In this document: positions 1 through 43,570 of the stretch, one piece after another
How the letters are laid out: every line of letters begins with the position of its first letter
Position numbering within the stretch: position 1 is the first letter of the stretch
Virus record (IMG/VR): IMGVR_UViG_3300037193_001696
Location: 1 to 43,849 of that record
Length of the DNA stretch: 43,849 nucleotides
From: a virus
Reading direction: 5' to 3' (one strand)
Made by a program: the position numbers and the translations under genes
The notes under the pieces: model-generated
What the model saw: only the letters and a program-made list of their open reading frames with translations
Told to the model about the DNA's origin: nothing
Databases searched by the model: none

Positions 1-141
1 GCCGATGTTGTCCACCAGCTCGTCCATGCGGTCGACGATTTCCTGTGGCGGGCTGCCCATCTCGCCCAGCTCGGCCAGCTCCCGCCGGTCCGCTTCCGCC
101 CAGTCCTCGTGCGCTTCGGCCTGGGCGGTGTACTCGGTCGC
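1..141. repeat. Left copy of 141-bp terminal direct repeat
   Basis: Identical to 43709-43849. An exact 141-bp overlap at both ends of a contig is typical of de Bruijn assembly of a circular molecule with k=141. It also falls inside one continuous reading frame, which reads through cleanly when the copies are merged. It is therefore read as an assembly overlap, not a biological terminal repeat. Confidence 0.93.
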
Positions 142-207
142 CAGGCCCCGGTAGGTCCGCTCGTCTGCGGACATCACGTCGCTGCTGATCGTCGCCGCGT
201 TGGTCAT
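1..207 (-). CDS. Possible nested product from an internal start
   Basis: Inside the junction-spanning gene, and in the same frame, ATG 207 is preceded by a good ribosome binding site (GGAGGC, 3 nt before the ATG). It would give a soluble acidic protein of about 99 aa (MTNAATISSDVMSADERTYR...), ending at 43616 on the circle. The composition changes here from Arg/Pro-rich to a helical Glu/Ala-rich domain, so the C-terminal domain may also be made alone. An alternative is that this is the true start of a separate gene and the upstream open frame is partly fortuitous. Confidence 0.45.
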   Translation of the reverse strand, partial: MTNAATISSDVMSADERTYRGLATEYTAQAEAHEDWAEADRRELAELGEMGSPPQEIVDRMDELVDNIG

Positions 208-1146
208 CGTGCCTCCATTCCGTCGGTGTGCAGGCCCGTTCGGGAACAGGCCGTCGAGGGGTTCGAAAAAGGTGCGTGGCCACCGGCCCGACCGGACTTC
301 GTCGCCCACCACCGTGGCGGCGCGGTTCCAGCCGTTGAGCCCGCGTTCCCACTGCCGCCGGGCCCACGTGCCGGCGACGGCCCAGTCCGGCGACCAGCGG
401 TCGCGGTTGGGCTTCTTCTTCCTCCAGGCCCGGTCCTTGTCCCGGGCCTTCCTGCGCGCTCGTTCCTTCTTCCCGTACGGCTTCGGCTTCGGCGCGGGAC
501 GACCGGGCCCGCGCGACCGCGACCGGGCCCGGCCTGGCCCGCCGCCCGCGCGGACAGCGGCCCGCGCGGAAGCCGACCGCCGGGCCCGCCGGGAGAACGC
601 GGCGCCCGCCGCCGCGCGTGCCTGCCGGGCCCGGCCCGCGCCCTGTTGCCGGGCCCGGCCCGCTGCGGCACGGGCCCGGTGGGCCGGGCCCGTCACGGCC
701 CGCCGGGCCCGACGCAGGGCCTGCCGGGCCCGGCCCGCAGGCCCGGCCCGGCCCGGCCTGCGGGCCTGCCGGGCCCGGGCCCGGGCCGTACGGCGGGCCC
801 GGTTCCACGGGGCCCATCGGGCCCGGCCCGGCCGGCCCCGGCCCGATGGGCCCGGCCCCGGCCGGGCCCGCTGGCGCCCGGCCTGGCCCGGCCGGGCCCG
901 CCAGGCCCACACGACGACCACGATCACGACGACCGCACCCAGCGCCGCCAGGACCCAGCCCGACCACAGCCACACCGACAGCCCCACCAGCGCCACCAGC
1001 AGCGGCCAGGTCCAGAGCAGCACCTGGCGCCAGTGCCAGCCGTCGACCCGCTCGTCGACGACCTCACCCACACCCCCGTCGACCACCAACGGGGTCGACG
1101 CGAAGACCTCATCGGCGGTGCGGTCCTGGTCGACGGGGGCGCTCAC
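1..1146 (-). CDS. Junction-spanning Spd-like membrane protein, Arg/Ala/Gly/Pro-rich (N-terminal part)
   Basis: The reading frame opens at GTG 1146, overlapping the stop of the upstream SpdB-like gene (GTGA), and has no stop down to base 1. It continues on the circle through 43708 to a TAA at 43616-43618, giving about 412 aa. Residues ~38-78 form two hydrophobic segments rich in Trp, Leu and Val (VLLWTWPLLVALVGLSVWLW, then VLAALGAVVVIVVVVWAW). Next comes a long Arg/Ala/Gly/Pro low-complexity tract (RARPG, RARQ units) and then a normal-looking basic region (KKERARRKARDKD, KKKPNRDRW). The role is inferred from context: it is co-transcribed with SpdB-like and TraB genes, so it is probably a plasmid-spread membrane protein. 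The low-complexity frame was checked codon by codon, and this frame gives the more protein-like ends. I do not recognise a named family. Confidence 0.7.
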   Translation of the reverse strand, partial: MSAPVDQDRTADEVFASTPLVVDGGVGEVVDERVDGWHWRQVLLWTWPLLVALVGLSVWLWSGWVLAALGAVVVIVVVVWAWRARPGQAGRQRARPGPGPSGRGRPGRARWAPWNRARRTARARARQARRPGRAGPAGRARQALRRARRAVTGPAHRARAAAGRARQQGAGRARQARAAAGAAFSRRARRSASARAAVRAGGGPGRARSRSRGPGRPAPKPKPYGKKERARRKARDKDRAWRKKKPNRDRWSPDWAVAGTWARRQWERGLNGWNRAATVVGDEVRSGRWPRTFFEPLDGLFPNGPAHRRNGGTMTNAATISSDVMSADERTYRGLATEYTAQAEAHEDWAEADRRELAELGEMGSPPQEIVDRMDELVDNIG

Positions 1147-1575
1147 TCGGTCGCCCCAACCGGTGCAAGCCGGTCACGGACCGCCTCGACCAGTGGCGTG
1201 CGCATGGTGTGCTGCACGCTGCGGTTCTGCGCCCGCATCGCGTCGAGCAGGTCCCCGCGCGTCCACGTCCCCCGCTCGGCCAGCTGCTGCCGGGCCCACT
1301 CGACGGCGGCCGTCAGCAGCTCGTCGGGGAGGTCGTCCGCCGTGAGCTTCGCGGGCGTGGGCTGCTCCACCGGCTTGAACGGCTGGGTGCGCTCGGCCTC
1401 GGTCTCGGGCCCGGCCCGGCCCGGCCCGGCCTGCTCGTCGGTCTCGGGCCCGGCCCGGCCCGGCCCGGCCTGCTCGTCGGCCTCGGGCCCGGCCCGGCCC
1501 GGCCCGGCCTGCTCGTCGGCCTCGGGCCCGGCCTGCTCGTCAGCGCGGGCCCGGCCCGGCCCGGTCAGGCCCGAG
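490..1575. repeat. GGGCCCGG/GGCCCGGCC-rich repeat tract
   Basis: Dozens of copies of GGGCCCGG or GGCCCGGCCC are spread over about 1 kb, densest at 500-900 and 1405-1575. They cross the boundary between two genes, with a plainer stretch at ~905-1400. On the minus strand they encode Arg/Ala/Gly/Pro-rich segments. The motif is self-complementary (GGGCCC), so the tract can form many small hairpins. It lies in the transfer block, where actinomycete plasmids may carry the short repeats (TRS) bound by TraB. A link to that role is inference only. Confidence 0.75.
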
Positions 1576-2300
1576 GTCGGGCCCGCCAGGCCTACCGTGG
1601 CCAGGCCCGCGTTGATCGTCAGCGCCCACGCGCCGGCGTTGCAGGCCCGCACGAACCGGCGGAGCCGATCGACTGCGATGGCCAGCTTGGGCGTCGTGGG
1701 CGTGGCGGGCGGTTGGACCGCAGCGGGCCGGCGCGGTGCGACCTTCGGCCGGGCGTGGCCTGCCGCGGCTGCGGCAGCCTCGACGGCCTCGGTCAGGCGG
1801 TCGCGCATCTTCGGCCCGGCTTCGGCCGCGAACAGCACCAGCAACGGCGGCACCGAGTGCAGCACCACGCCGCTGGCGCCGTGGCCGTCGTCGATCAACC
1901 TGTGCCAGGACTCCCAGGTGTTCATGGTGTAGGTCGCGGCGAACGTGCCCCACTTGGTGAGTTTGATCCAGTTCAGCAGGCCGTGGGTGGCGCGGGTGCT
2001 GACCTGCCACCGCCCCAGAACCTGCTCACCCAGCAGCAGGCCGATCAGCACCAGGCTGACGATCGGGTCGAGGACCCAAGCCGCCCACCACCCTGGGCTG
2101 TCCTTGTCGAGACCCCGCGCGGCGAAGGCCTGGACGTTGACCATCGTGAACGCCAGGCCGCCCACGATCCCGGTCCAGACCAGCACGTCGCAGACTCGCC
2201 GTACACGCTCGACGTGCAGCGCGACGACGTCCGGGTTGGTGCGGTGCTCCCGCAGCCGCGCGGCGGAGGCCGCCTTCTCGTCGAGGCTCTTCCTGGGCAA
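1143..2300 (-). CDS. SpdB-like plasmid spread membrane protein (DUF2637-like)
   Basis: About 385 aa. The start is taken as TTG 2300, since AGGAGG lies 9 nt upstream and directly follows the stop of the preceding gene. The N-terminal ~190 residues hold several membrane segments (VLVWTGIVGGLAFTMVNVQA, WVLDPIVSLVLIGLLLG, SGVVLHSVPPLLVLFAA) and the GLLNWIKLTKWGTFAATY stretch typical of DUF2637/SpdB2-type proteins of actinomycete plasmids. The middle is Ala/Pro-rich, followed by the 13-residue tandem repeats. The last ~75 residues look like a small DNA-binding helical domain (DLPDELLTAAVEWARQQL, RGDLLDAMRAQNRSVQH). The family is linked to intramycelial plasmid spreading. The gene is translationally coupled to the next gene downstream. 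Confidence 0.8.
   Translation of the reverse strand: MPRKSLDEKAASAARLREHRTNPDVVALHVERVRRVCDVLVWTGIVGGLAFTMVNVQAFAARGLDKDSPGWWAAWVLDPIVSLVLIGLLLGEQVLGRWQVSTRATHGLLNWIKLTKWGTFAATYTMNTWESWHRLIDDGHGASGVVLHSVPPLLVLFAAEAGPKMRDRLTEAVEAAAAAAGHARPKVAPRRPAAVQPPATPTTPKLAIAVDRLRRFVRACNAGAWALTINAGLATVGLAGPTSGLTGPGRARADEQAGPEADEQAGPGRAGPEADEQAGPGRAGPETDEQAGPGRAGPETEAERTQPFKPVEQPTPAKLTADDLPDELLTAAVEWARQQLAERGTWTRGDLLDAMRAQNRSVQHTMRTPLVEAVRDRLAPVGATE
1402..1542 (-). repeat. 39-bp tandem repeat (three full copies and a 24-bp partial)
   Basis: Full units lie at 1402-1440, 1441-1479 and 1480-1518, with a partial unit lacking 15 bp at 1519-1542. On the minus strand each unit encodes a 13-residue DEQAGPGRAGPET/EA repeat within the C-terminal half of the SpdB-like protein. 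Units are nearly identical at DNA level, which suggests recent slippage or selection on the DNA motif itself. Confidence 0.9.
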
Positions 2301-2313
2301 GGTGGTCTTCCTC

Positions 2314-2775
2314 CTAGTCGATCGAACTTGGCGGCGGGGTGGGCAACGACTCGACATCGGCCAGGGCCTGGACGCCGTGCGGGCTGCGCGCCAGCAGCTC
2401 GCCCGCCCAGCGCAGGATCGAGTCCGGGTCGCGGGGGTTGACCTTCCGGGACGCCAGTTGGCCGGCCCAGTGTTCGGCGACCGCCCGCGCCATGTGCCAG
2501 TCGGTGGCCGTCAGCGGCAGATAGCCGACGACCCTGTCCAGGAGCAGCCACAGGGTCATCGCGTGGGTGACCTTGGTGACCAGGTTGCCCTTCGTCTCGG
2601 ACGGGTAGGTGACCGGGAAGATCTCGACGTTGACCTTGCCCACGACCACCGCGATCGAGGGGACGGGGTGGCGCTTGCGGGCGCCTTTGAGCCGCAGGTA
2701 CACCAGCGAGTCGGCGGGGTAGGTGTCGTCGGGGCGCGGCTGGAAGCGGACCAGCTTGTCGGTGGACGTGCTCAT
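2314..2775 (-). CDS. Conserved hypothetical protein of the transfer block
   Basis: About 153 aa starting at ATG 2775, which overlaps the stop of the upstream gene (ATGA). The sequence begins MSTSTDKLVRFQPRPDD and is a mixed soluble protein with no clear membrane span (VPSIAVVVGKVNVEIFPVTY; THAMTLWLLLDRVVGYLPL may be a buried helix). It ends in the AGGAGG that serves the SpdB-like gene. Its position between two membrane proteins in one operon suggests an accessory transfer role. No family recognised. Confidence 0.8.
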   Translation of the reverse strand: MSTSTDKLVRFQPRPDDTYPADSLVYLRLKGARKRHPVPSIAVVVGKVNVEIFPVTYPSETKGNLVTKVTHAMTLWLLLDRVVGYLPLTATDWHMARAVAEHWAGQLASRKVNPRDPDSILRWAGELLARSPHGVQALADVESLPTPPPSSID

Positions 2776-3032
2776 CGACGGCCCCCCGAGCGGTCGCGCC
2801 GCCGGCGACGCCGCCTGACCCACACGGAGTAGGTCGCGCAGGTCAGCACCGACCACAGGACGACGACCCCGCCCATCCAGCGCAGACCGCTGTCGCTGTC
2901 CAGGTCCAGGTCGTCGGCCGTCATCAGCAGGTTGACCAGGCTGGCCACCAGGATCAGCACGGCGATGAGGAAGTACCAGCGGGTGAACCGCTCGTCGGGG
3001 TCGAGGGGGTCGACGCTCGGCCGGCGCCCCAT
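2772..3032 (-). CDS. Small two-span membrane protein, first gene of the transfer block
   Basis: About 86 aa from ATG 3032; a GTG at 3041 would add three residues. It has two hydrophobic helices (WYFLIAVLILVASLVNLLM and GGVVVLWSVLTCATYSVWV) separated by an acidic loop (DDLDLDSDSG), and ends in a very basic tail (RRRRRRRDRSGGRR). The tail would sit in the cytoplasm. It resembles the small Spd membrane proteins of actinomycete plasmids in size and layout only. The 4-bp ATGA overlap with the next gene supports one operon running to TraB. Confidence 0.75.
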   Translation of the reverse strand: MGRRPSVDPLDPDERFTRWYFLIAVLILVASLVNLLMTADDLDLDSDSGLRWMGGVVVLWSVLTCATYSVWVRRRRRRRDRSGGRR

Positions 3033-3116
3033 CACAACCACGCCCGATCATGAACACTCCACGTGTTTGCTTTACTACGCATGGCAAATCCGTCCTTCCG
3101 ACGACGGGTGAGCCAG

Positions 3117-3147
3117 CCCCGGCCGGATGGACAAGATCCGGTCGGGG
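3117..3147. other. Hairpin in the divergent intergenic region
   Basis: A 12-bp stem (CCCCGGCCGGAT / ATCCGGTCGGGG, one G-T pair) with a 7-nt loop, midway between the divergent transfer operon and the GntR gene. It may act as an attenuator or insulating terminator. The rest of 3033-3116 holds no gene; a TTGCCA-like -35 for the transfer operon is visible on the minus strand but is weak. Confidence 0.5.
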
Positions 3148-3178
3148 CCCTGTATTCGGGTGATCTTCCTGAGGTAGC

Positions 3179-3223
3179 TTGATCTGCGTCGGCGCAGATG
3201 TCAATGTCTGAGTCGGCGCAGTT
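3179..3223 (+). promoter_or_regulatory. Promoter and operator of the GntR gene
   Basis: TTGATC at 3179-3184 and CAATGT at 3202-3207 are spaced 17 bp apart. Two copies of TCTGNGTCGGCGCAG start at 3183 and 3207, exactly 24 bp apart. The first forms a perfect dyad (TCTGCG TCGG CGCAGA). The repeats overlap the promoter elements, as expected for autoregulation by a dimeric GntR repressor. That the GntR protein binds here is inference. Confidence 0.6.
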
Positions 3224-3243
3224 CACCCTTAGGAGGCATTGCC

Positions 3244-4062
3244 GTGGAGCGTTACCGGCTAGTAGCCGACGACCTGGAACGGCGGATCGACGCCGGCGAG
3301 TTTCCGCCGGGTGCGCGGTTGCCGTCCTGGCGGTCGTTGCAGGAGAGCTACAACATCAGCAGGACGCTGGTGGGCGAGGCGATGTCCGTGCTCGTCGCGC
3401 GGAACCGCATCCGGGCCAAGGCCCGCTCCGGTGCTTTCGTCCTGCCACCGTCCGCACCCCGCCAGCGCATGGCCATCGGAATGGCCGTGGCCCGCAATGA
3501 GCTGGGCTATCTGTTCAACCAGCACGCCGGGCACTGGCGCCCGCTGGGCCCGCCGACCATCCACCGCGTGCCGTGCCCGGCTGCCGACGACGTCGCCGAG
3601 CTGCTGCACGTCGAGCCCGGTACCGAGGTCGTCGAGCGGCGGCGGGTCGTCGGCATCAGCGAGACCGAGCCCATGCAGATCACCAGCACCTACCTGTCAC
3701 CCGCGCTCGTCGACCAGGCCCCGGTCGTCGCGGACTCCGACACCGGCCCGGGTGGCTGGGTCGAGCGCGTCGAGCAGGACCTGGCGCTGGGACCGGTGTC
3801 CTGGCCCGTCGACGTCATCACCCGGCTACCGACCCGGCGGGAGGCCAGCGACCTGGACATGCCCGAGTCCCAGCCGGTGCTGGTCGAGCTGCGCCTGGTC
3901 CTGCCCGCCGGAGCGGTGGCGGGGGAGGACCCGCCGCTGGCCGCGGAGATCGCCGTACGGGACGGCCGCCGCTGGAAGGTGTCCTACGAGCTGGTGCGCG
4001 ACGAGTCCGCGGCCTGGCCCGTCACCCCGGCCACCGCCCGCAACACCCCGGAACCCCGATGA
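3244..4062 (+). CDS. GntR-family transcriptional regulator (wHTH plus UTRA-like domain)
   Basis: 272 aa from GTG 3244, with AGGAGG 7 nt upstream. Residues ~1-70 are a GntR winged helix (YRLVADDLERRIDAGEFPPG, RLPSWRSLQESYNISRTLVG, then a wing at ARSGAF). Residues ~85-260 match the UTRA/HutC effector fold, with the typical VERRRVVGISETEPMQITSTY segment. In actinomycete conjugative plasmids, GntR proteins of the Kor type repress transfer genes whose unchecked expression is toxic (established). Divergence from the spd/tra operon fits this. It may also control lysogeny. Confidence 0.9.
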   Translation: MERYRLVADDLERRIDAGEFPPGARLPSWRSLQESYNISRTLVGEAMSVLVARNRIRAKARSGAFVLPPSAPRQRMAIGMAVARNELGYLFNQHAGHWRPLGPPTIHRVPCPAADDVAELLHVEPGTEVVERRRVVGISETEPMQITSTYLSPALVDQAPVVADSDTGPGGWVERVEQDLALGPVSWPVDVITRLPTRREASDLDMPESQPVLVELRLVLPAGAVAGEDPPLAAEIAVRDGRRWKVSYELVRDESAAWPVTPATARNTPEPR

Positions 4063-4262
4063 CCGGCCCGGCCGAGAGGCGTCGACCCGAATGCCGCCCG
4101 GTCGACGTCGGCTCGGGTCCGCCCGCACTAGCCCGTTCGAGTGGACCACTGACCGAGCGCGATCGGGCGGCGCTGGCGCGGTTCGCGGCCGAGCTGAGGG
4201 CCTATCAAGATCAACTCCGCGCACTACAGGATCTACAAAAGCGCAGGTCAGAGCAGCTTTGA
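4059..4262 (+). CDS. Small hypothetical protein downstream of the GntR gene
   Basis: 67 aa from ATG 4059, overlapping the regulator stop by 4 bp (ATGA). The N-terminal half is Pro/Arg-rich; the C-terminal half is a probable amphipathic helix or coiled coil (RAALARFAAELRAYQDQLRA). Translational coupling suggests it modulates or partners the regulator. No family recognised. Confidence 0.65.
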   Translation: MTGPAERRRPECRPVDVGSGPPALARSSGPLTERDRAALARFAAELRAYQDQLRALQDLQKRRSEQL

Positions 4263-4765: not shown

Positions 4766-6676
4766 ATGCCCCCTGCCGAACGGGTGTCCCCCGAAGCGCA
4801 CGAACCCGCACCCGCGTGCGTCAGCTGCGGCCTGCCGGGCCGGTGGCGACCAGCCCCGCCGGGTGGTCGATCCCTCCCGGTTTGCGACGTTGAGTGGCAG
4901 ATGTCCGGTGGCCTGGACGCCACCGACGACGCCATCGTCCTGCGCGACCCCGACCCCACGTCCTGGGCGCGCGAGTCCGCGGTGGCCTGGGCCGACGACT
5001 GGGAGTCCGGCCGGGTCGTGGCCTGGATGCTCGCTCACGGCGTGCGGTGGTCGCTGCTGCGCTGGATTCGTCCGGATAGCCGATGGGCTTGGTACGAACA
5101 GCTGATCAAGTTGACCCCGCCGCCGGGCACCAGGGCGTGCGTCGAAGGCCGTGAGGTGTGGCTGGACCACGTCGTCGAGGTCATCAGCTCCCAGCCCTGG
5201 CAGAAGCGCCGCAAGGACAAGTGGCTGGCCATCGCCCACGCCATCGCCTACGCCGTGCCGCTGCACGGCGGCGCGATCACCCGGGACGGCTGCACCTACC
5301 CCGAGCTGGCCGAGGCCGCCGGCTGCTGCCTGGACTACGTCGCGGACATCGTGGAGTGGTTCGTCCAGGCCGGCCTGCTGCACATCGTGGTGCCCGGCAC
5401 CCGCAAGAAGCCGATGCCCCAGCCCGAGGACGAGACGCCCGAGGAAGCCGCGGCCAGGGAGGCCTACGAGCAGCGCCTGGCCGCCCACACCGAGGCCCGG
5501 GCCGAAGAGCTGAAGCGGGCCAAGGCCCAGCTGCGGGAGCAGATCAACGACGAGATGCGCACCGGCGCCATCGTCGTCCAGCTGGACCCGTTCCGGGACA
5601 CCGTGCCCGCGCCCGAGCTGCCCCCGTCCCACAAGGGGGAGTGGATCAACGTGGCGCAGGTGTACCAGCTGCGGCTACCCGCACCCCCTGAACCCTCCGA
5701 GCTGCCCGCCGAAGCGTGGGGCAGGCCCAAGGTGGCCAGCCTGGGGAAGGCCCGTCAGCGTCGCGCACAGCGCCGGCGCGGCACCCTCACGCGCAAGGCC
5801 GTGCAGCCGGGGCGCACGGCGGCTCTACCAGGGCAGACGGAAAATTCCAGCCCCAACGCTGATCATCTAGAAAGAGATCGTCCATGCAGTTCCAGCGCGG
5901 TTGTGGAGAAACGAGCGGCTTCGCCGCGCTCAGACGAAGGAGCGTCAGGGCAAAGCGGGGGTTCGAAACGTACCAGCCGACCCGGTTCACGCGTCGTACG
6001 TGCAGCTCAGCGCCTGTTGGGCGTGTCCCAGAGTGGGCACGGCATGCCCTCGGGTCGGTACGAGCGGCTACCCCTGTCGCTGCGCGGGGTGGGGGTGGCC
6101 TGGCTGGCCCGCCGCATCGCGCCGTACGTGGTGGCCGGCTGGACCGATGAGCAGCTGGTGCAGCTCATCGCCTACGACAGCGGTCGCAAGCCGTCCTGCC
6201 CGCCGGACATCCCCAACCCACGCGGGTTCGTGGTCAACGCGCTGCGCAGGCAGGCACCCAGCGTGCCGTTCCGCTCGGCCGCCGAGACCGACGAGCTGCG
6301 CCAGGCCGTCGACGTCGAGGTCACCAGGAACGACGACGCGCAGCAGCTGCGCGAGCAGAACGCCCGGCGGATCGCCCGCCTGGTGGCCGCCGCGGCCGAC
6401 TGCGACCAGTGCGACGACGAGGGGTTCCGCCAGATCACCGGCCCGCGCGGACACCTGGTCGTCCAGCGCTGCACCCACGACGAACCCGAACCCCAGCCCG
6501 AGCCGACCGAACCGAAGCCACCCGCGTCCGACGAGTTCCGCGAGCGGCTGATGGCCCAGGCCCGCGCCGCCGACGAACGCCGACGTGCGGCGGCGGCAGC
6601 CGCCGGTGAACCCCGGCCACGTCGCAAGCCCGGCCGGCGCATCCGCCTGGCGCCAGGGCGGTACTGGAAGCGGTGA
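4766..6676 (+). CDS. Putative plasmid-type replication initiator
   Basis: 636 aa from ATG 4766; the ribosome site is weak. Cys18, Cys21 and a Cys near 40 suggest a zinc site. Residues ~150-215 look like a winged helix (YAVPLHGGAITRDGCTYPEL, then DYVADIVEWFVQAGLLHIVV). Residues ~225-280 are a charged coiled coil. Residues ~430-505 are a second helical domain (VAWLARRIAPYVVAGWTDEQ). A CDQC...CTH motif lies near 546-571 and the C-terminus is basic. The layout and context resemble Rep proteins of actinomycete integrative plasmids (RepAM-like), but I cannot confirm homology. No other replication gene is present, which supports the role. Residues ~350-420 are atypical in composition (see the candidate origin). 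Confidence 0.6.
   Translation: MPPAERVSPEAHEPAPACVSCGLPGRWRPAPPGGRSLPVCDVEWQMSGGLDATDDAIVLRDPDPTSWARESAVAWADDWESGRVVAWMLAHGVRWSLLRWIRPDSRWAWYEQLIKLTPPPGTRACVEGREVWLDHVVEVISSQPWQKRRKDKWLAIAHAIAYAVPLHGGAITRDGCTYPELAEAAGCCLDYVADIVEWFVQAGLLHIVVPGTRKKPMPQPEDETPEEAAAREAYEQRLAAHTEARAEELKRAKAQLREQINDEMRTGAIVVQLDPFRDTVPAPELPPSHKGEWINVAQVYQLRLPAPPEPSELPAEAWGRPKVASLGKARQRRAQRRRGTLTRKAVQPGRTAALPGQTENSSPNADHLERDRPCSSSAVVEKRAASPRSDEGASGQSGGSKRTSRPGSRVVRAAQRLLGVSQSGHGMPSGRYERLPLSLRGVGVAWLARRIAPYVVAGWTDEQLVQLIAYDSGRKPSCPPDIPNPRGFVVNALRRQAPSVPFRSAAETDELRQAVDVEVTRNDDAQQLREQNARRIARLVAAAADCDQCDDEGFRQITGPRGHLVVQRCTHDEPEPQPEPTEPKPPASDEFRERLMAQARAADERRRAAAAAAGEPRPRRKPGRRIRLAPGRYWKR
5835..6010. other. Candidate replication origin inside rep
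   Basis: This stretch is clearly less GC-rich than its surroundings (GGAAAATTCC, GATCATCTAGAAAGAGATC). It encodes Ser-rich residues without evident fold and contains a strong hairpin (GAGCGGCTTCGCCGCGCTC). In the AICE pSAM2 the origin is associated with the rep region (established). Equivalence here is inference. Confidence 0.35.
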
Positions 6677-7450: not shown

Positions 7451-8172
7451 TCGCCAACGGCGCGCACGTGGAATCCGCTCTGGCCCTACGCGCCGCTGCG
7501 TCGCGCGTGCTCGCCGACCGCGACGCAGCGGGACCGGTCGCCGTCCAGGCCGCCTTGCTGCTCGACGTCGTCAGCGGCCTGCTGGGCACCCGCCCGGAGC
7601 TGGCCGACGACCTGATCGAGGTCGAGCGGCGGGCCCACGACCTCGGCCGCGCCCTGGTCGACCAGGTGGGCGAACGCGCCCTCGACGACGGCCAGGTCGA
7701 CGTCGACACCGCGGCCGGGCCGTCCAGGCTCGACCAGGTCGAGGCCATCACGGCCTGGACGAAGGCCTACCCGGACGGCGACGAGCTGGTCGACCTGGAC
7801 GGCTGCGCGGTCCGGCTGGCCGAGCAGGTCACCGGAGCGTTGGCCGGCGCACCGCGGCCGTACCCGCTGGACGTGGTGCGCGAGATCGTGCTGGGCGTCC
7901 AGCTGACCGCGCGGACGCTGGCCGCCAGGGCGGACGCCCTGGTGATGCAGCTCTACAGCTGGCGCGTGGTCCCGGCCGACCAGCCCGGCGCGCTGCGGCA
8001 CGACCGCACCGGCGTGCCCGACGTCGCCGGCGACAACGCGCACCTGGTCGACGGGGAAGTCACGGCGGTGCGCGACGTGATGGTGTGGGTGGCGGACAGC
8101 CTCACCCGCGTCGACGAGCTGGCGCCCCGTGCGCTCACCAGCCTCAACCACCTGAGCCACCACCGGAAGTGA
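7447..8172 (+). CDS. Hypothetical helical protein
   Basis: 241 aa from GTG 7447. It is largely alpha-helical and acidic (ALRAAASRVLADRDAAGPVA, ELADDLIEVERRAHDLGRAL), with no membrane span, signal peptide or recognised motif. It is translationally coupled to the preceding gene, and the next start is 10 bp past its stop. A role in replication or early element functions is possible from position only. Confidence 0.75.
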   Translation: MIANGAHVESALALRAAASRVLADRDAAGPVAVQAALLLDVVSGLLGTRPELADDLIEVERRAHDLGRALVDQVGERALDDGQVDVDTAAGPSRLDQVEAITAWTKAYPDGDELVDLDGCAVRLAEQVTGALAGAPRPYPLDVVREIVLGVQLTARTLAARADALVMQLYSWRVVPADQPGALRHDRTGVPDVAGDNAHLVDGEVTAVRDVMVWVADSLTRVDELAPRALTSLNHLSHHRK

Positions 8173-8182
8173 GGGGCCCACG

Positions 8183-15628: not shown

Positions 15629-15698
15629 CCTGGCCTCATCCGAGGTCGAAAAAGTAGACGACCCATCGCGTTGACGCAGGCCACAGGGGGTGATCCCT

Positions 15699-17366
15699 GT
15701 GCCCTGGCGCGGTGCGCAAGAAACCGGCGAATTCCCGTCCCTCGGTTGGCTCATCGGCGAGTGGATCGAGGATCACTGCATCGTCCCGGACGGCGAAAAG
15801 CTAGGTGAGCCTTACCTGCTCACCGACGAGATGTGGGAACACCTGGTGTGGTCCTACAGGCTGCGCCCCGACGCACGGGACGGCGACGGTTCCGACGCGA
15901 TGGCCTACCGCGGGGACCAGCTGGTGCGCCCGCAGAAGTGGGGCAAGGACCCGCTGAACGCCGCGCGGTGCGCGGCGCACGCCCTGGGCCCCGTGCTGTT
16001 CGCGGGCTGGGACGCCAGGGGGGAACCTGTCGGCAAGCCGCACCCGTCCCCGTGGATCGCCATCGCGGCGTACAACGAGACCCAGACCAACAACACCTAC
16101 CGCCCGCTGATGACGATGCTCACCGGGCCGATGCTGGTGGGAACACCCGGTCTCGACGTCGGCCTGGAAGGCGTGAAGCTTCCGGGGGTCGGCTGGATCG
16201 ACCCTGTGACGTCGTCGGCCTTCGGCAAGCTCGGTGGCCGGTTCACGTACGTCTCGGTGACCGAGTCCGGCTTGCTGATCGGTGAGGGCAAGACCGGTGG
16301 CGTGACGTTCGGCCGTGTGCTGAAACGCAACGTCGGCGGTATGGGCGGCATGTGGTCGGAGATCACCAACCCGTGGGACCCGACCGAGAATTCGCTGGCC
16401 CAGCGGACCTACGAGGCGAAGGCCAAGGACGTCTACATCAACTACCGCCTGCCGCGCCAGCGAGTCGAGTTGGACGACGACGAAGGGCTGTTGCGGGAGA
16501 TCATCTACCTGTACGGCGACAGCATCCGGGAGAACGGCGGCTGGGCGTCGTCGCAGTACATCAAGGCCTGCGTGCAGGACAAGTCGATGGGCGAGGCCGA
16601 CGTCCGCAGGTTCTTCCTACAGGAGATCGTCAGCGGCACCCGCGACGTCGTCACCACCGAGGGTTGGGCCGCGCTGGCCCGCCCCAACGACGACCCACTG
16701 CGCCCTGGCGAAGCGATCGCCCTGGGTTTCGACGGCTCCCGCAGTTCCGACGCCACCGCGTTGGTTGCGTGCCGCATCCGGGACGCCAAGCTGTTCCGGC
16801 TGCGGACCTGGACCCCGGCCGACTACCAGGACCACCTGGTGCCACGGCCCGAGGTACACCGCGCGGTCGTCGACGCCTTCGAGGGCTTCGACGTCCACTA
16901 CCTGTTCGCCGATCCCTACAAGTGGTCCGAGTACCTGGACCTGTGGGCCGGGTTGTTCCCGGGCCGGATCGTCGAGTTCCCGACCAACGTCGAGACCCGG
17001 ATGGACCAAGCGGTCGTCCGGTTCCTGACCGCCTACGCCAACGGCGAAGTCCTGCACGACGGCGACCCCCTGGCCACCGAGCACGCCCTGAACGCCGTGC
17101 TGGTCAAGGGCAAGCGCAAGCCGGGCCGAGTCGACGACAACGGCATCCCCGAGCACTACATGGGCCTGGCGAAGAAGCGCACCGGTCTGCTGATCGACAA
17201 CTTCGTCGCGGCCATCCTCGCGCTGCACGCCCGCGGCCACGCCATCGAACACGGCGCCCTGGCCGACGACAGCTACCCGCCGGCGGCGGCACCGGCGGAC
17301 CAGGCCGACGTCGACGACCCGCTGGCGTTCTGGCGCCCGAACCGGCGCCTATCCGACCTGATCTGA
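15699..17366 (+). CDS. Terminase large subunit
   Basis: 555 aa from GTG 15699, chosen because AGGGGGTGAT precedes it at good spacing (GTG 15690 is too close). The N-terminal ATPase carries a Walker-A-like RPQKWGKDPL near residue 75, and the YNETQTNNTYRPLMTML segment is typical of actinophage TerL. The nuclease domain begins near residue 345 (LGFDGSRSSDAT, first metal-binding Asp), with a later acidic site at IDNFVAAIL (~500). The enzyme pumps DNA into the prohead and cuts it. It starts the head gene order. Confidence 0.93.
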   Translation: MPWRGAQETGEFPSLGWLIGEWIEDHCIVPDGEKLGEPYLLTDEMWEHLVWSYRLRPDARDGDGSDAMAYRGDQLVRPQKWGKDPLNAARCAAHALGPVLFAGWDARGEPVGKPHPSPWIAIAAYNETQTNNTYRPLMTMLTGPMLVGTPGLDVGLEGVKLPGVGWIDPVTSSAFGKLGGRFTYVSVTESGLLIGEGKTGGVTFGRVLKRNVGGMGGMWSEITNPWDPTENSLAQRTYEAKAKDVYINYRLPRQRVELDDDEGLLREIIYLYGDSIRENGGWASSQYIKACVQDKSMGEADVRRFFLQEIVSGTRDVVTTEGWAALARPNDDPLRPGEAIALGFDGSRSSDATALVACRIRDAKLFRLRTWTPADYQDHLVPRPEVHRAVVDAFEGFDVHYLFADPYKWSEYLDLWAGLFPGRIVEFPTNVETRMDQAVVRFLTAYANGEVLHDGDPLATEHALNAVLVKGKRKPGRVDDNGIPEHYMGLAKKRTGLLIDNFVAAILALHARGHAIEHGALADDSYPPAAAPADQADVDDPLAFWRPNRRLSDLI

Positions 17367-17379
17367 CCGGAGGATCACC

Positions 17380-17676
17380 GTGGCGAAGCTGCGCTTGACC
17401 ATCGACGTGCCGACGCCCGGCAGCACCACGGTGTCCAACTACCTGTGCCTGGCCGGTGTGGTCGGCCTGGCGGTGTCCGCCGGTGGCCTGGTCGGCAACT
17501 GGTGGGTGTCCGCGCTGGTCGGCTCCCTGGTGCTGATCGTGGTGGCCGCGGTGGCGAAGTACAACGCCCGCGGCGACGGCGACACCGGCGAACCCGGCCC
17601 GGCCGCGTCGCAGAACGTCGAGCGTCGTCGGCCGCCGTTCGGCGTGGTCGACGACGAGCTGCCTCGGGGTGCCTGA
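17380..17676 (+). CDS. Two-span membrane protein between terminase and portal
   Basis: 98 aa from GTG 17380, with GGAGG upstream. Two adjacent hydrophobic helices (NYLCLAGVVGLAVSAGGLVG, VSALVGSLVLIVVAAVA) are followed by a polar C-terminus. It overlaps the portal start (TGATG). A membrane protein here is uncommon; it may be holin-like or involved in superinfection exclusion. Function unknown. Confidence 0.75.
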   Translation: MAKLRLTIDVPTPGSTTVSNYLCLAGVVGLAVSAGGLVGNWWVSALVGSLVLIVVAAVAKYNARGDGDTGEPGPAASQNVERRRPPFGVVDDELPRGA

Positions 17677-19112
17677 TGGGCGGGTCCTGGTTCTTCCCGG
17701 ACCGCCGTGCGGTCGAGGCCAGCCCGTCCCAGATCGTTGCCACCGGCGCGGCCGGGTCGGGCTACGGCGTCGACCCGCTGGACGGCGACTACGGCTGGCA
17801 GGCCATCGGCAGCGGGGGCGGACCGCGCGAGATCCCCTGGCACACAAGGGAACGCGCCCGCACCTACTCGGTCGCGGCGTACCGGTACAACCCGATGGCC
17901 AAGGCCATCGTGGACACCTACATCAGCTTCTGCGTCGGCGACTCCGGGGTGCACCTGGAAGGCACCAACCCCGACGTGCTGCGCGTGGCGAGCGAGTTCT
18001 GGGACGACCCGGCGGTCGACCTGGGCGCCCGCCAGGAGCTGCTGCTGCGTGACGGGATGCTCTCCGGTGAGCAGCTGGTGGAGTTGATGACCGGCCAGCA
18101 CAGCCACGCCGTGCGGTTCGCGCCCGTCGAACCCGCCGGCATCGACGACATCACCCGCCACCTGGGCAACCCCTTGTGGCCCGACCAGGCAGTGTTCCGC
18201 CGCGCCGGTGACGAACTGCGCCTGGACATCGCCCGGGTCGACGATCGGACCGGCCTGCGCACCGGTGACGCCATCTGGTGGGCACCGTGGAAGACCACGG
18301 CCACCGACATGAGGTCCCAGCCGTTCCTGGCGACCGTGCTCGACTGGCTCGACAGCTACGACATGATCCTGTCGAACCTGATCGACCGGACCGCGCTGGC
18401 GCGCTACATCGTCTGGGACGTCACGGTCACCGGCGACCAGAAAGACGTCGACAGCTACGTCAAGGGCCGCGGCGGCAACCGCATCCCGCGCAGCGGCACC
18501 GTCGAGGTCCACAACGACCGCGTGAAGTGGGAACCCAAGGTCGCGCAGACCGGGGCCTACGAGGACAACGCGGCCAACCGCAGCGTGCTGACGATGGCTG
18601 CCGCCGGCTCGGGCCTGTCCCGCCACTGGCTGGCCGACCCGGAAGACGCCAACAGGGCCACGTCCCAGTCGATGGCCGAACCGGTGCGCCGCCGCGTGCA
18701 GTCGGTCCAGCGGATGTGGCTGGACCACCAGACCGAGCTGGCGCGCTACGCCGTCGACCACGCCGTGCGGCGCGGCCGGCTGCCGCAGCTGGTCGACGCC
18801 GTCGACCCGCGCACCAACGAGCGCTACCGCGTCCCCGCCGCCCAGACCATCACGGCCGTGGGCCCCGAGGTCGCGGCGGCCGACGCGCAGATCGCCGCGG
18901 CTGTGCTGCTGAACCTCAGCACCGGCCTGGAGAAGTTCGCCGAGATCGGCGCCCTGTCGCCCGAGGGCATCCAGCTGGCCGCGCGCCGCGCCTGGGAACA
19001 GTTCATGGGCGTGCCCTACGTGGCCGAGCTGGACAAGCCGGGCACGGACCGCGACAAGGTCGCGGACCACATCGACAGCAACACCAAGCCGCCGGCCGAA
19101 GCCGCGGCCTGA
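17676..19112 (+). CDS. Phage portal protein
   Basis: 478 aa from ATG 17676 (TGATG with the preceding stop). Portal-like features are RYNPMAKAIVDTYISFCVGD, the wing and stem region with a long helix (SYDMILSNLIDRTALARYIV), and a C-terminal segment with AAADAQIAAAVLLNLSTGL. The portal forms the dodecameric DNA gate at the capsid vertex and binds the large terminase. Gene order and length are normal for siphoviruses. Confidence 0.85.
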   Translation: MGGSWFFPDRRAVEASPSQIVATGAAGSGYGVDPLDGDYGWQAIGSGGGPREIPWHTRERARTYSVAAYRYNPMAKAIVDTYISFCVGDSGVHLEGTNPDVLRVASEFWDDPAVDLGARQELLLRDGMLSGEQLVELMTGQHSHAVRFAPVEPAGIDDITRHLGNPLWPDQAVFRRAGDELRLDIARVDDRTGLRTGDAIWWAPWKTTATDMRSQPFLATVLDWLDSYDMILSNLIDRTALARYIVWDVTVTGDQKDVDSYVKGRGGNRIPRSGTVEVHNDRVKWEPKVAQTGAYEDNAANRSVLTMAAAGSGLSRHWLADPEDANRATSQSMAEPVRRRVQSVQRMWLDHQTELARYAVDHAVRRGRLPQLVDAVDPRTNERYRVPAAQTITAVGPEVAAADAQIAAAVLLNLSTGLEKFAEIGALSPEGIQLAARRAWEQFMGVPYVAELDKPGTDRDKVADHIDSNTKPPAEAAA

Positions 19113-19155
19113 CCGCCAACCCCAATCACCTGACCCCGGGAAGGGGCTCTTTGCC

Positions 19156-19578
19156 ATGTCCGAAACCCGTCAGGAGTGGGCGGCGCACGCGCTCGGTATG
19201 CGGACCGACGAGGTCGTGAACGTGGTCAGCCGCGGTGACGTCCACCTGGCCACCCTGCACGACCGCACCCGCGCCGTGCTCACCGCGGACGGCCGCTACA
19301 CGTTCGACGTCGACGTCGTCGACGAGTTCGTCACCGCCACGACCGAGACCGAGCCCGTCGACGTGCAGCCCACCGGCGACCCGGGCCAGCAGCCCGCGGA
19401 CCCCGGCGTCGACGACGTCGTGCCGGACGGCCCCGTCGACGACGTCCTGGCCTGGGTCGGCAGCGACGTCGACCGCGCCCGCCGCGCCCTGGTGGCCGAG
19501 GGCGAGCGCCCCAAGCCGAGGTCCGGGCTGACCGCGACGCTGACCGGGCTGGTGGCGCCCGCCGGTGACGGCGCATGA
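19156..19578 (+). CDS. Hypothetical head-region protein
   Basis: 140 aa from ATG 19156. The N-terminal half looks folded (ARQ-poor, GRYTFDVDVVDEFVTATT), the middle is acidic and Pro-rich, and the end is basic. It overlaps the protease-capsid gene by 4 bp (ATGA). Position suggests a scaffold or head-assembly helper; not recognised. Confidence 0.7.
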   Translation: MSETRQEWAAHALGMRTDEVVNVVSRGDVHLATLHDRTRAVLTADGRYTFDVDVVDEFVTATTETEPVDVQPTGDPGQQPADPGVDDVVPDGPVDDVLAWVGSDVDRARRALVAEGERPKPRSGLTATLTGLVAPAGDGA

Positions 19579-21932
19579 CGACCACGGCCACCAGCGAAGC
19601 GCTGGTCAACGGCGCGCTGAGTTTTTCGGACCGGGGCGACCTGGTCCGCAAGGCGCTGCGCGCCCGGCTGCTGCACACCGGCGTCGACTACTGCTGGGTG
19701 TGGGTGGTCGACATGACCGCCACCGACGTGGTCTACGAGACCGAGGGCGACCAGCTCTGGCAGTGCGGCTACAGCATCGACGACGACGGCACGGTCGTGC
19801 TGGCCGACCCGGTCCAGGTGGCCCGCACGTACGTCGTGGTCGGCACCCCGGCCGAGGACACCAGCGTCGACCTGTCCGCCGCTGTGGAGAGCGCACAGCC
19901 GGGCGAACGCGACCACCTGGTCGGCCGGGTGCTGGAGTCCAAGGGCACCAGCAGCATCACCGGCGGCCGGGTCTACGCGGTGCGGATCATCAGCGTGGGC
20001 GACAGCCTCAACGGCAACCGCTACGGCGAGTCCGTGCTGGCCGCCGCCGCAGGCCTCTACGAGGGGGCCAAGGCCTACAACCGCCACCGGTCGACCGAAG
20101 AGATCAGTAGCGGAACGATCGAAGGCCTGGTCGGGCTGTACCGCAACGTCACCGCCAGCCGCGAAGGCCTCGACGCCGAGCTGCACCTGTTCCCCTCCGC
20201 GACCTCGACGGCCGAAGCGCTCGACGCCGCCCTGGCCGCCGAAGCCGAAGGCCTGCCGCCCACGGTCGGCATCAGCCACGACGTGCTCGGCTCGTTCAGC
20301 TCGACCACCGAGTCGGGCCGCCAGATCCGCGTGGCGCAGTCCATCACCCACGTGTTCAGCGCCGACGTCGTCAGCGAACCCGCCGCCGGCGGCAAGGCCA
20401 CGCGCGTGGTCGCCGGCGGCATCCACCTCGACCTGACCGCCACCCGCGCGGCCGAGAACCAGCAGGAGACCCCCATGTCCGTGTCCACCGAGGCCGTGCT
20501 GGCCGCGCTCAAGGACGCCAAGCCCGACCAGCTCGCCTCGGTGGGCTTGCAGCGCGCCGGCGAGACCACGGCCAAGCCCGAGGCCGAGCCGGCCCGCGCG
20601 CCCGAGGCCACCACCCCGGCCGAGCCGCTGCACTCCAAGAACGGCTGGGCCGTGCGCGGCATGGTGCAGCACTACGTCACCCAGGCGTCGCTGCCCGCGC
20701 AGGTCGTCGAGTCGGTGCTGGACGCCCTGCCGGAGCAGGTCACCGAGTCGCAGGTGAACGCCCAGCTGCGCGTCGTCCAGGACGGCCTGGCGGTCGTCGA
20801 GCGGGCGGGCCTGGCGCCGCGCACCGCCGAGACCCAGGTGACGAAGGACGAGCGCGACCGCAAGCGCGAGGCCATCGGCCAGATGCTGGTCAACAACGGC
20901 CAGGGTTACGGCTCGCTGCGCGAAGCGTTCATCGACTGGTCCGGCGAGCGTCCGCGCGCCTTCGACGAGGACTTCAACCGGCGCGTGCTGGCCGAGTGCT
21001 TCCTGATCAGGGACCCGCGTGCCCGTGAGTCGCTGGACTCGGGCAGCTGGGCGCAGGTCTTCTCCGACGAGCTGGGCAAGCGCCTGGTCGCCGAGTACGA
21101 CACCCCGGAGTTGCAGTCCTGGCGGCAGGTCGTCAGCTCGACGCCGCGGATCAACGACTTCCGCGAGCAGAAGATCAGCCGGGTGGGCGGCTACGGGCAG
21201 CTGCCCGAGGTCGCCGAGGGCGCCCCGTACCAGCCGCTCACCTCGCCCGGCGACGAGGACGCCCGCTACTCGATCACCAAGCGCGGCGGCACCGAGGACC
21301 TGACCCTGGAGATGATCGCCAACGACGACCTGCGGGCCGTGGCGAACATCCCGAAGATGTTGGGTCGGGCGGCGGCGATCACCCTCTACAGGTTCGTCTG
21401 GGACATCTTCCCGACCAACGGCACGGTCACCTACGACTCGAAGGCGCTGTTCCACGCCGACCACAGCAACACCACGGCGTCCGCGCTGTCGTACAGCTCG
21501 CTCACCACGCTGCGCGGCAAGATGCGCAAGCAGGCCCGCTTCGGCAGCTCGATCGACGTGCTGTCGCTGGTGCCCAAGTTCCTCATCGTCCCCACCGACC
21601 TCGAGGACATGGCCAACCGGCTGTGCACCAGCGAGAAGGCGCAGCCCGCGGCCAGCGACGCCTCGGACATGCCGAACCTGCACCGCGGGTTGACCCCGAT
21701 CGTGATCGACTACTGGTCGGACGCGAACGACTGGTTCCTGCTGGCCAACCCGATGCTGTGCCCCACCATCGAGGTCGGCTTCTACCAGGGCAAGGAGCAG
21801 CCCGAGCTGTTCTCCCAGATCGACAACAACGTCGGCAGCGTGTTCGACGCCGACAAGATCACGTGGAAGATCCGGCACATCTACGGGTCCGTGGTGGTCG
21901 ACCACCGCGGCATGCAGCGCGGCACCGCCTGA
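19575..21932 (+). CDS. Prohead protease-major capsid protein fusion
   Basis: 785 aa from ATG 19575. Residues ~110-300 look like a prohead serine protease (VYAVRIISVGDSLNGNRYGE, YNRHRSTEEI, GISHDVLGSFSS). Residues ~300-450 form a charged scaffold-like linker. Residues ~450-785 are a major capsid protein of the Mu gpT-like type (SSTPRINDFREQKISRVGGY, FHADHSNTTASAL, WKIRHIYGSVVVDHRGMQRG). Such fusions are known in actinophages. The protease would cut itself and the scaffold away during maturation. An internal start at 20475 may make extra capsid chain. Confidence 0.85.
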   Translation: MTTTATSEALVNGALSFSDRGDLVRKALRARLLHTGVDYCWVWVVDMTATDVVYETEGDQLWQCGYSIDDDGTVVLADPVQVARTYVVVGTPAEDTSVDLSAAVESAQPGERDHLVGRVLESKGTSSITGGRVYAVRIISVGDSLNGNRYGESVLAAAAGLYEGAKAYNRHRSTEEISSGTIEGLVGLYRNVTASREGLDAELHLFPSATSTAEALDAALAAEAEGLPPTVGISHDVLGSFSSTTESGRQIRVAQSITHVFSADVVSEPAAGGKATRVVAGGIHLDLTATRAAENQQETPMSVSTEAVLAALKDAKPDQLASVGLQRAGETTAKPEAEPARAPEATTPAEPLHSKNGWAVRGMVQHYVTQASLPAQVVESVLDALPEQVTESQVNAQLRVVQDGLAVVERAGLAPRTAETQVTKDERDRKREAIGQMLVNNGQGYGSLREAFIDWSGERPRAFDEDFNRRVLAECFLIRDPRARESLDSGSWAQVFSDELGKRLVAEYDTPELQSWRQVVSSTPRINDFREQKISRVGGYGQLPEVAEGAPYQPLTSPGDEDARYSITKRGGTEDLTLEMIANDDLRAVANIPKMLGRAAAITLYRFVWDIFPTNGTVTYDSKALFHADHSNTTASALSYSSLTTLRGKMRKQARFGSSIDVLSLVPKFLIVPTDLEDMANRLCTSEKAQPAASDASDMPNLHRGLTPIVIDYWSDANDWFLLANPMLCPTIEVGFYQGKEQPELFSQIDNNVGSVFDADKITWKIRHIYGSVVVDHRGMQRGTA
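20475..21932 (+). CDS. Possible capsid protein from internal start
   Basis: In frame within the fusion gene, ATG 20475 is preceded by CAGGAGAC at 6-7 nt. It would yield about 485 aa (MSVSTEAVLAALKDAKPDQL...), exactly the scaffold-plus-capsid part. Nested starts in protease/scaffold genes occur in lambda-like phages (established). Use here is inference. Confidence 0.45.
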   Translation: MSVSTEAVLAALKDAKPDQLASVGLQRAGETTAKPEAEPARAPEATTPAEPLHSKNGWAVRGMVQHYVTQASLPAQVVESVLDALPEQVTESQVNAQLRVVQDGLAVVERAGLAPRTAETQVTKDERDRKREAIGQMLVNNGQGYGSLREAFIDWSGERPRAFDEDFNRRVLAECFLIRDPRARESLDSGSWAQVFSDELGKRLVAEYDTPELQSWRQVVSSTPRINDFREQKISRVGGYGQLPEVAEGAPYQPLTSPGDEDARYSITKRGGTEDLTLEMIANDDLRAVANIPKMLGRAAAITLYRFVWDIFPTNGTVTYDSKALFHADHSNTTASALSYSSLTTLRGKMRKQARFGSSIDVLSLVPKFLIVPTDLEDMANRLCTSEKAQPAASDASDMPNLHRGLTPIVIDYWSDANDWFLLANPMLCPTIEVGFYQGKEQPELFSQIDNNVGSVFDADKITWKIRHIYGSVVVDHRGMQRGTA

Positions 21933-24264: not shown

Positions 24265-24507
24265 ATGACCAAGATCCGGTCCCCGTTCGACGAACCGGTG
24301 CGGGTGCCCTGGCTGAACGAACGGATCGTCGGCCCCGACGAAGTCGTCCAGGTCCCCGACCAGTACGTCGAGAACTTCCTGGCCGGCGGCTGGCAGCTCG
24401 TCGACCCGCCCACCGACCCGCCCACCGACGTCGACCCGCCCGTCGACCCGCCCGCGCCGCGCCGCAAGGTAGCCGCGCGCCCGCGCACCACCCCGCAGGA
24501 GGGATGA
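24265..24507 (+). CDS. Small tail-region protein with Pro/Asp repeat
   Basis: 80 aa from ATG 24265, with AGGAGGGCAG upstream. The N-terminal ~50 residues look folded (YVENFLAGGWQLVDPP), followed by PTDPPTDVDPPVDPPAP repeats and a basic tail. Similar short proteins often precede the tail tube gene in actinophages. Function unknown. Confidence 0.7.
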   Translation: MTKIRSPFDEPVRVPWLNERIVGPDEVVQVPDQYVENFLAGGWQLVDPPTDPPTDVDPPVDPPAPRRKVAARPRTTPQEG

Positions 24508-32678: not shown

Positions 32679-33590
32679 TTGGCACTCTGCCCCTTCGCAC
32701 GCCACCGCCTGATCCCGGAGAGCTACAGCCAGGGCCGGATCAACCCGCGCGTGCTGATCTTCCACCAGGCCGTCAGCACGGCCGAATCCCTCTACGGCTA
32801 CTGGACTTCCCCCGGCGTCGAGCTGGAGTCGCACTTCTACGTCTACAAGGACGGGTCGCTGGACCAGTACGTCGACACCGAGGTCCGGGCCGACGCCAAC
32901 GTCGAGGCCAACGGCTTCGCGGTCAGCGTCGAGACCTGGGACAACGGTGGCAGCGACGAGCCCTGGACCGACGCCCAGCTGGCCACGCTCACCCGCCTGG
33001 CCGCCTGGGTCTCCGAGGTGCACGGCATCCCGGCCGTCGTGCCGTCCGGCCCGTACGGGTCCGGCATCGGCTGGCACAACCTCTACCCCGACGAGTGGGC
33101 CGGCGGACCCCGCGCCTGCCCCGGCAACCACCGCATCGCCCAGGTGCGCAACCACATCATCCCCACCGTGGCCGCCGGCGGCGGCTGGCAGGAGGAAGAC
33201 ATGCAGGCCGACGAGCGCGCCGCCCTGTTCCGCATCAAGGAGATCCTTGAGGTCTTCAACAAGGGCGCCACCAAGCGACTGCCCGCGGGCTGGGGCATCG
33301 ACATGTTCGCCCAGTTCCTGTACGAGGCCGTCATCTCGATGCACCGCCACGGGTTCAAGCCGATGGCCGAGGGCGCCCTGGGCGGCGACCTCAGCTGGTT
33401 CGACACCAAGCTGACCGACGCCCTGTCCAAGTCGGACAAGGCCGTGCTGGACGGCGTGGCCCGCATCGTCGAGGCCCACCAGACCCAGGTCGAGCTGACC
33501 CCCGAGCAGGCCCAGACCCTGTTCGACGCCTTCCCGCCCGTGGTCGCCCAGGCCCTGCGCGACGCTGCCGCGCGCGTGGCCACCGGCTGA
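32679..33590 (+). CDS. Endolysin: N-acetylmuramoyl-L-alanine amidase
   Basis: 303 aa from TTG 32679, with GAGGTGATC upstream. Residues ~20-160 are a PGRP/amidase_2 fold with zinc-ligand candidates His29 (LIFHQAV), a His near 130 (GIGWHNLYP) and one near 146 (ACPGNHRI). The last ~130 residues form a helical cell-wall-binding or oligomerisation region (DERAALFRIKEIL ... TPEQAQTLFDAFPPVVAQAL). It cuts peptidoglycan between sugar and peptide at lysis. Confidence 0.88.
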   Translation: MALCPFARHRLIPESYSQGRINPRVLIFHQAVSTAESLYGYWTSPGVELESHFYVYKDGSLDQYVDTEVRADANVEANGFAVSVETWDNGGSDEPWTDAQLATLTRLAAWVSEVHGIPAVVPSGPYGSGIGWHNLYPDEWAGGPRACPGNHRIAQVRNHIIPTVAAGGGWQEEDMQADERAALFRIKEILEVFNKGATKRLPAGWGIDMFAQFLYEAVISMHRHGFKPMAEGALGGDLSWFDTKLTDALSKSDKAVLDGVARIVEAHQTQVELTPEQAQTLFDAFPPVVAQALRDAAARVATG

Positions 33591-37811: not shown

Positions 37812-37994
37812 GTGGATCTTGAAAAGGACGGCCCACGCCAGCGGGAAGTCGTGGCGCGGCTGGCGGGCGGCATCGCCGACATGTTCATCCGCCACGCGAA
37901 CAACCGGCCCGACGACCAGCAGGCCCAGCAGGCGGCCAACGAAGCCACGGACCGCGCCGCCGCCGTGCGGCGGGAACTGCTGGACGAGTCGTGA
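37812..37994 (+). CDS. Small acidic/helical protein upstream of integrase
   Basis: 60 aa from GTG 37812. A single helical, charged domain (REVVARLAGGIADMFIRHAN, AANEATDRAAAVRRELLDES). Overlaps the integrase start by 4 bp. No family recognised. Confidence 0.6.
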   Translation: MDLEKDGPRQREVVARLAGGIADMFIRHANNRPDDQQAQQAANEATDRAAAVRRELLDES

Positions 37995-39919: not shown

Positions 39920-39935
39920 CCATCCACGCGAAGCC

Positions 39936-39976
39936 AGCGGGCGCCCTGCTCGTCGGTACCGAGCAGGGCGCCCGCT
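39936..39976 (+). terminator. Perfect 17-bp hairpin terminator
   Basis: AGCGGGCGCCCTGCTCG pairs perfectly with CGAGCAGGGCGCCCGCT over a 7-nt loop, followed by GCTCTTCCT, 16 bp past the stop of the isolated gene. Confidence 0.88.
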
Positions 39977-40008
39977 GCTCTTCCTACCACCCGAAGAGGA
40001 CTGTTGAA

Positions 40009-40368: not shown

Positions 40369-40377
40369 CCGGCCAGC
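40355..40377. terminator. Palindrome shared by two converging stop codons
   Basis: GCTGGCCGGCT-t-AGCCGGCCAGC is an 11-bp perfect dyad centred at 40366. It contains the TAG of the plus-strand gene and the TAA of the minus-strand gene. It may act as a bidirectional terminator within the coding ends. Confidence 0.65.
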
Positions 40378-43548: not shown

Positions 43549-43570
43549 GACGATTCCTCCTACGGGATCG

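Follow-up and report, generated by a model that had tools for sequence, protein, structure and literature searches.

A clustered GC-rich word in two spread genes of a phage-borne tra/spd module: a candidate cis-acting array for a membrane Spd protein

A phage genome with a tra/spd module

The stretch of DNA analyzed here, hereafter the window, is the whole of IMG/VR record IMGVR_UViG_3300037193_001696 (43,849 bases). A 141-bp direct terminal repeat defines a unit of 43,708 bases, with window position 43709 corresponding to position 1. The window is a phage genome that carries, alongside its virion genes, a tra/spd module of the actinobacterial conjugative-element type, so that virion genes and TraB, Spd and GntR genes stand together on one 43.7-kb circle. 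Outside the module, a siphophage-type set of genes (terminase to endolysin) and an integrase were identified:

15690-17366: terminase
17445-19112: portal
19575-21932: capsid-protease
26715-29423: tape measure
32679-33590: endolysin
37991-39157: tyrosine integrase

A 12-base tandem repeat (CGACCCGCCCAC) also lies between virion-region genes at 24402-24454. The module, which includes some further small genes, and its neighborhood are organized as follows:

1-1146, minus strand: orfX, an Arg/Ala-rich gene with a GTG start at 1146; hydrophobic N-terminus followed by an Arg-rich stretch
43616-43708, minus strand: end of the orfX frame, which continues over the junction of the circle as far as a stop at 43616
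358-1585: cluster of GGGCCCGG / CCGGGCCC (29 of the 32 copies in the window), core word CGGGCC / GGGCCCG
1143-2357, minus strand: SpdB-like gene encoding 404 aa, with some three hydrophobic segments (55-178) followed by a linker and a C-terminal helical domain
1146-1331, minus strand: C-terminal tail of the SpdB-like protein, modeled as three helices; a candidate DNA-binding domain
1399-1585: linker-coding part of the SpdB-like gene that carries the word
1399-1533: within that part, a 39-bp tandem unit in 3.5 copies
3244-4062, plus strand: GntR/UTRA regulator in a KorSA-like position
4766-6676, plus strand: candidate replication gene, assigned by position only and without a family match
41409-41484: hairpin 3' of the traB stop, arms of about 20 bases
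41485-43668, minus strand: translocase of the TraB/FtsK type, called at 727 aa, with a hydrophobic N-terminus and with Walker A (GVGKS) and Walker B (LDEA) motifs
41509-41688, minus strand: predicted winged-helix end of TraB (residues 661-720)

The true start of TraB is probably downstream of the called one. The winged helix that an earlier note on this DNA had ascribed to its C-terminus was recovered as a prediction (HHH-beta-beta, pLDDT 55-77 by ten-residue block) in a model that is otherwise poor. CACTCAC/GTGAGTG occurs five times in the genome, always in the hairpin beyond the traB stop. This hairpin is a candidate for an alternative TraB site, being similar in place and make-up to a compact clt, or for a terminator.

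The earlier note had also named the two genes next to traB as Spd genes. Synteny and similarity to genes of pAmyja1 and G007 support this name, but no Pfam match does. The SpdB-like gene occupies the position of the DUF2637 genes in G007 and in Streptomyces relatives, yet it matched no Pfam family, including DUF2637 (PF10935), to which the G007 gene in the equivalent position matches at 3e-36. In the AlphaFold model its residues 320-404 form three helices (mean pLDDT 72.7), and a fold search of this tail against the PDB returned no significant match. The orfX gene corresponds in position to a 530-aa gene of G007 and pAmyja1, with which it shares a local VGxxVRSG segment identified by eye.

One word is concentrated in two spread genes

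Counted on both strands of the whole window, GGGCCCGG occurs 32 times against 11.2 +/- 3.6 expected from dinucleotide shuffles, none of 100 of which reached the observed number. Most of these copies (28/32) lie at 503-1554, with one more at 358 and only three in the remaining 42 kb. This count over the window, which the earlier note had proposed as a check, identified GGGCCCGG as the most clustered 8-mer (Poisson score ~1e-55). The best 7-mer or 8-mer scores ranged from 1e-5 to 1e-11 in controls, namely regions outside the module in the elements compared here and the phages mu1/6, SV1 and G001. The same scan recovered the known sps site of pIJ101 (CACGTGAC, 4/4 copies at 8140-8177) as the top 300-bp 8-mer cluster of that plasmid.

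The cluster is divided between two genes, with 23 copies of GGGCCCGG in orfX and six in the SpdB-like gene, and it is read differently in each of them. On the minus strand of orfX the word is mostly read as CGG GCC CGG (R-A-R), while in the SpdB-like gene (1143-2357) it is read as GCC GGG CCC (A-G-P). Both the repetition of one motif in two genes near traB and its two reading patterns had been described from the sequence, and both were confirmed. The tract had been placed at 490-1575; the cluster is real, but its extent is 358-1585. Its segment at 1399-1533 is also a 39-bp tandem repeat, so that the array is partly a tandem duplication, and it shows in addition a period-5 GGCCC pattern. The region at 2358-4100 had no excess, with a single GGGCCCG.

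The words exceed what protein and codon use account for

We compared word counts with a null in which synonymous codons were permuted within each gene (2000 runs), keeping both the protein and its codon usage. For orfX, 7.7 copies of GGGCCCGG were expected and at most 18 were obtained, against 23 observed (0/2000). For the SpdB-like gene, the excess was weak for GGGCCCGG itself (6 vs 2.8, P ~0.06) and larger for GGGCCCG (13 vs 6.1, P ~0.01) and GGCCCGG (18 vs 7.3, 0/2000). Sites within the spread genes therefore exceed the need of the protein, strongly in orfX and more weakly in the SpdB-like gene, and the DNA word is favored beyond the protein. This bears out the earlier proposal of selection on DNA and not on protein only. 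The Arg-rich gene of G007 in the position of orfX contains zero copies of GGGCCCGG.

More widely, we surveyed 20 Spd, 16 orfX, 19 traB, and 43 control genes, taking for each gene the largest 6-mer excess over synonymous permutation. Spd genes, several of which were assigned by module position and not by family match, had a median of 4.2 compared to 2.1 in controls (Mann-Whitney P=3.8e-5; 20 vs 43 genes). As classes, neither traB genes (n=19, P=0.12) nor orfX genes (n=16, P=0.20) exceeded the controls. The strongest excesses among Spd genes were those of NBC_01353 (CGCTCA, 32 vs 5.9 expected), NBC_01333 (GGCTCA, 21 vs 2.75), NBC_01259, NBC_01723, NBC_01417, Micromonospora NBC_00821, and phage VWB (CGCACC, 15 vs 3.0). 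Related Spd genes without an array were found in NBC_01590, S. libani, pFQ12, and Gilgamesh.

Arrays in related phages and plasmids

A pattern scan of viral and genome contigs returned no close relatives of the window TraB, and none were found in the phage collection. There were only two distant plasmid matches, and identity to any relative found was ~21-26%. The nearest annotated relatives are the TraB proteins of the phage-plasmids pGBA129-24a (Actinoalloteichus) and pAmyja1 (Amycolatopsis japonica), at ~21-25% identity; more distant ones are encoded by 86-102 kb Streptomyces plasmids that carry virion genes.

In pGBA129-24a, pAmyja1, and G007 the top 8-mer cluster over 1.5 kb adjoins traB (CCGTCCCG/GGACGGAC and CGGGGACG), and the Spd gene itself showed no significant excess in any of them. 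The array of pAmyja1 and G007 is mostly noncoding, and its GGGGA sites are 92.7% identical between the two elements, compared to 84.5% outside the sites. Within the CGGGGAC array of pAmyja1, an iteron-like group of ACCCGT/GACCCGT at 3900-4190 is largely kept in G007. Phage G002 has a capsid protein at 70% identity to that of the window. Its FtsK-like gene is a different one, with separate repeats at the 5' end that stayed within the synonymous null (P=0.14).

Streptomyces phage-plasmids and phage VWB each carry one clustered, element-specific word per module, usually in the linker-coding half of the Spd gene. In the Streptomyces elements the array lies in or near this gene, with words such as GAGACC, CGGCTCA, CGAGACC, CGGACCG, and CGAAGC. 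Phage VWB, at first taken as a negative control, proved to be a case and was treated as one: it has a DUF2637-type Spd gene and a 26-copy array over this gene and its neighbor (score 1e-40), and no TraB homologue was found in it. Its region 16326-19508, annotated as hypothetical, holds the Spd gene together with more membrane genes of spread-like type and a CGCACCCG array. In most Spd genes scanned for membrane segments the words start past the last one; the words of Micromonospora NBC_00821, outside that scan, begin at residue 88. We found no consistent 10.5-bp signal of helical phasing.

These arrays bear on the reading of the tract as a functionless low-complexity GC-rich stretch, grown by slippage and tandem duplication where the protein tolerates nearly anything. 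On the one hand, such growth would account for the 39-bp unit, the period-5 pattern, and a product rich in Arg, Ala, Gly, and Pro. Copies in a single frame are also compatible with it, as for 12/14 CGCACCC in VWB p24 and 19/19 CCGAAGC in the S. atratus Spd gene. On the other hand, it does not predict the excess over synonymous permutation, the conservation in noncoding DNA of pAmyja1 and G007, or the lack of GGGCCCGG in the Arg-rich gene of G007. Copies are moreover dispersed at irregular spacing in several elements. Both strands and more than one frame are used in S. anulatus NBC_01333, S. albidoflavus, and NBC_01353, and mainly one frame in NBC_01723 and Micromonospora. We consider slippage a rather unlikely explanation of the tract as a whole; GC-rich repeat growth may apply above all to its tandem part. 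The one-frame words of S. atratus were separately considered as a coiled coil at the protein level, and this was rejected, as S. atratus and NBC_01417 exceed the synonymous null for CGAAGC.

Other repeats were observed in the same elements. Phage Gilgamesh has 48 of its 66 GCGCGCC copies in one mostly noncoding stretch (18383-19297) beside the AAA-ATPase gene gp77. The Streptomyces MMBL 11-1 plasmid has a second array at 40486-40802, distant from traB, with 14/16 copies of ACGGACCC in ~270 bases, and the Micromonospora NBC_00821 plasmid has dense repeat arrays (AACGCGCA, 27/27) at 39600-40780, distant from the transfer module.

In relatives the words follow the Spd gene rather than TraB

The TraB proteins of S. 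anulatus NBC_01333 and NBC_01417 are 99.9% identical (100% over the C-terminal 110 residues), and the products of the preceding gene are 98.1% identical. Their Spd genes are unrelated, and their words differ: the CGGCTCA array of NBC_01333 is absent from NBC_01417, which has GAAGCG/CGAAGC instead. The latter words are common to NBC_01417 and NBC_01723, whose TraB proteins share 23% identity and whose Spd proteins share 58%. NBC_01259 and NBC_01333 have the same word at 74% TraB and 75% Spd identity. The earlier note had proposed TraB as the reader of the motif and had set, beforehand, its absence from relatives with the same TraB C-terminus as a refuting outcome; in NBC_01333 and NBC_01417 the C-terminus is the same and the word is not kept. 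Together with the shared word at 23% TraB identity and with VWB, which lacks a TraB match, this disfavors TraB as the reader in the relatives.

Over the set, similarity in word excess correlated with that of the Spd tail at r=0.86, compared to 0.24-0.28 for TraB (0.24 for the TraB tail). Shared descent of the Spd genes accounts for part of this correlation, and with one element per Spd family the values were 0.26 and 0.28 and the contrast between Spd and TraB vanished. Word-excess correlations of four Spd pairs (0.38-0.55) were above those of 54 control homologous pairs at 45-85% identity (<=0.27); the one control pair at 85-95% identity gave r=0.32. The case for Spd over TraB is based on a few Spd families and on VWB. 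Since words track the Spd gene rather than TraB in the relatives, the Spd protein is the likelier reader. No element with the TraB of the window was found, and for this reason we infer the same pattern for the window from Streptomyces and leave TraB some probability there.

TraB recognition would mean that the array is a TRS or clt where the C-terminal winged helix guides the loading of hexameric TraB onto GGGCCCGG, in the manner of pSVH1 TraB on its 8-bp repeats. The array does adjoin traB, as arrays also do in pAmyja1, G007, and G002, a winged helix is predicted on the window TraB, and a weak residual correlation of words with TraB persists with one element per Spd family. Known plasmid clt loci are likewise clusters of direct repeats (pJV1, pWTY27; PMC3583192), but those described are compact (~54 to 175 bp) compared to the 1.2 kb found here, and the window has a separate compact repeat and hairpin at the traB 3' end. 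Added to the evidence from identical TraB proteins with different words and from VWB, this makes TraB recognition unlikely. Operators or iterons of another module protein, such as the GntR regulator or the replication protein, are very unlikely: the GntR gene and the candidate replication gene are close by and the pAmyja1 array contains the iteron-like group, but the words are spread within genes over 1.2 kb and not at promoters, with no excess at 2358-4100.

A possible word array for a membrane spread protein

We tentatively read the tract, with slightly less than even confidence, as a cis-acting word array of the phage tra/spd module, for which the membrane Spd protein is the most likely reader. 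The array would repeat a single short word specific to the element (core CGGGCC, best GGGCCCGG) within protein-tolerant parts of two spread genes. Its reader would be a protein of the same module, and the first candidate is the membrane-anchored SpdB-like protein, with the C-terminal domain that follows its word-rich linker. Binding of many words could hold the circular DNA at the membrane or at the cross-wall, from where it might be pumped by TraB or spread along the mycelium. We infer the binding protein, its mode of binding, and its role in spread or transfer; the Spd protein is taken as the likeliest reader and membrane tethering as the likeliest role because of the analogy with SpdA2, which binds sps in its own gene. 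Counter to this reading, most words of the window are in orfX and not in the SpdB-like gene.

More tentatively still, actinobacterial plasmids and phages may share exchangeable Spd cassettes, in which a membrane spread protein has its own gene and neighboring genes densely written with the word that its C-terminal domain binds. The cassette, and not TraB, would then select the DNA to be collected at the membrane, so that phages like VWB could use it without TraB. If the arrays mark Spd-bound DNA, each element names the sequence to test with its Spd protein, and the two S. anulatus elements, alike in TraB but not in their Spd cassettes, offer an experiment already set up. A DNA-binding code would in that case have shaped coding sequence, and phages would have a working spread system.

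Comparison with known systems

For most spd genes the molecular function has yet to be worked out (PMC4170104). The closest parallel is SpdA2 of pIJ101, which binds sps within its own coding region and affects segregational stability (PMC4170104); here, too, repeated sites lie inside the coding sequence of a spread gene. However, sps is one conserved 12-bp palindrome (CGTCACGTGACG) in 1-3 copies that is common to many plasmids (PMC4170104), whereas the word of the window is unrelated to this palindrome and present in dozens of copies, words vary between elements, and the Spd protein is membrane-bound, with putative binding only. SpdB2 of pSVH1 is a membrane protein with non-specific DNA binding that interacts with TraB (PMC4170104).

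As in the TraB/TRS and clt systems of pSVH1, pJV1, pIJ101, and pWTY27, short direct repeats are clustered beside an actinobacterial translocase gene. In contrast to those systems, the array is longer, lies inside the Spd and orfX genes, and has words that do not track TraB in the relatives tested. The combination of short GC-rich words with an FtsK-like motor also recalls FtsK and KOPS. KOPS are replicon-wide and of fixed orientation (PMC2680272), whereas the words of the window are local and those of several relatives occur in both orientations. Finally, the window resembles the actinobacterial phage-plasmids (pAmyja1, pGBA129-24a, and the Streptomyces NBC series) in combining virion genes with a Spd-TraB module, with GntR in most of them, and differs from them in its divergent TraB and in a circle of 43.7 kb.
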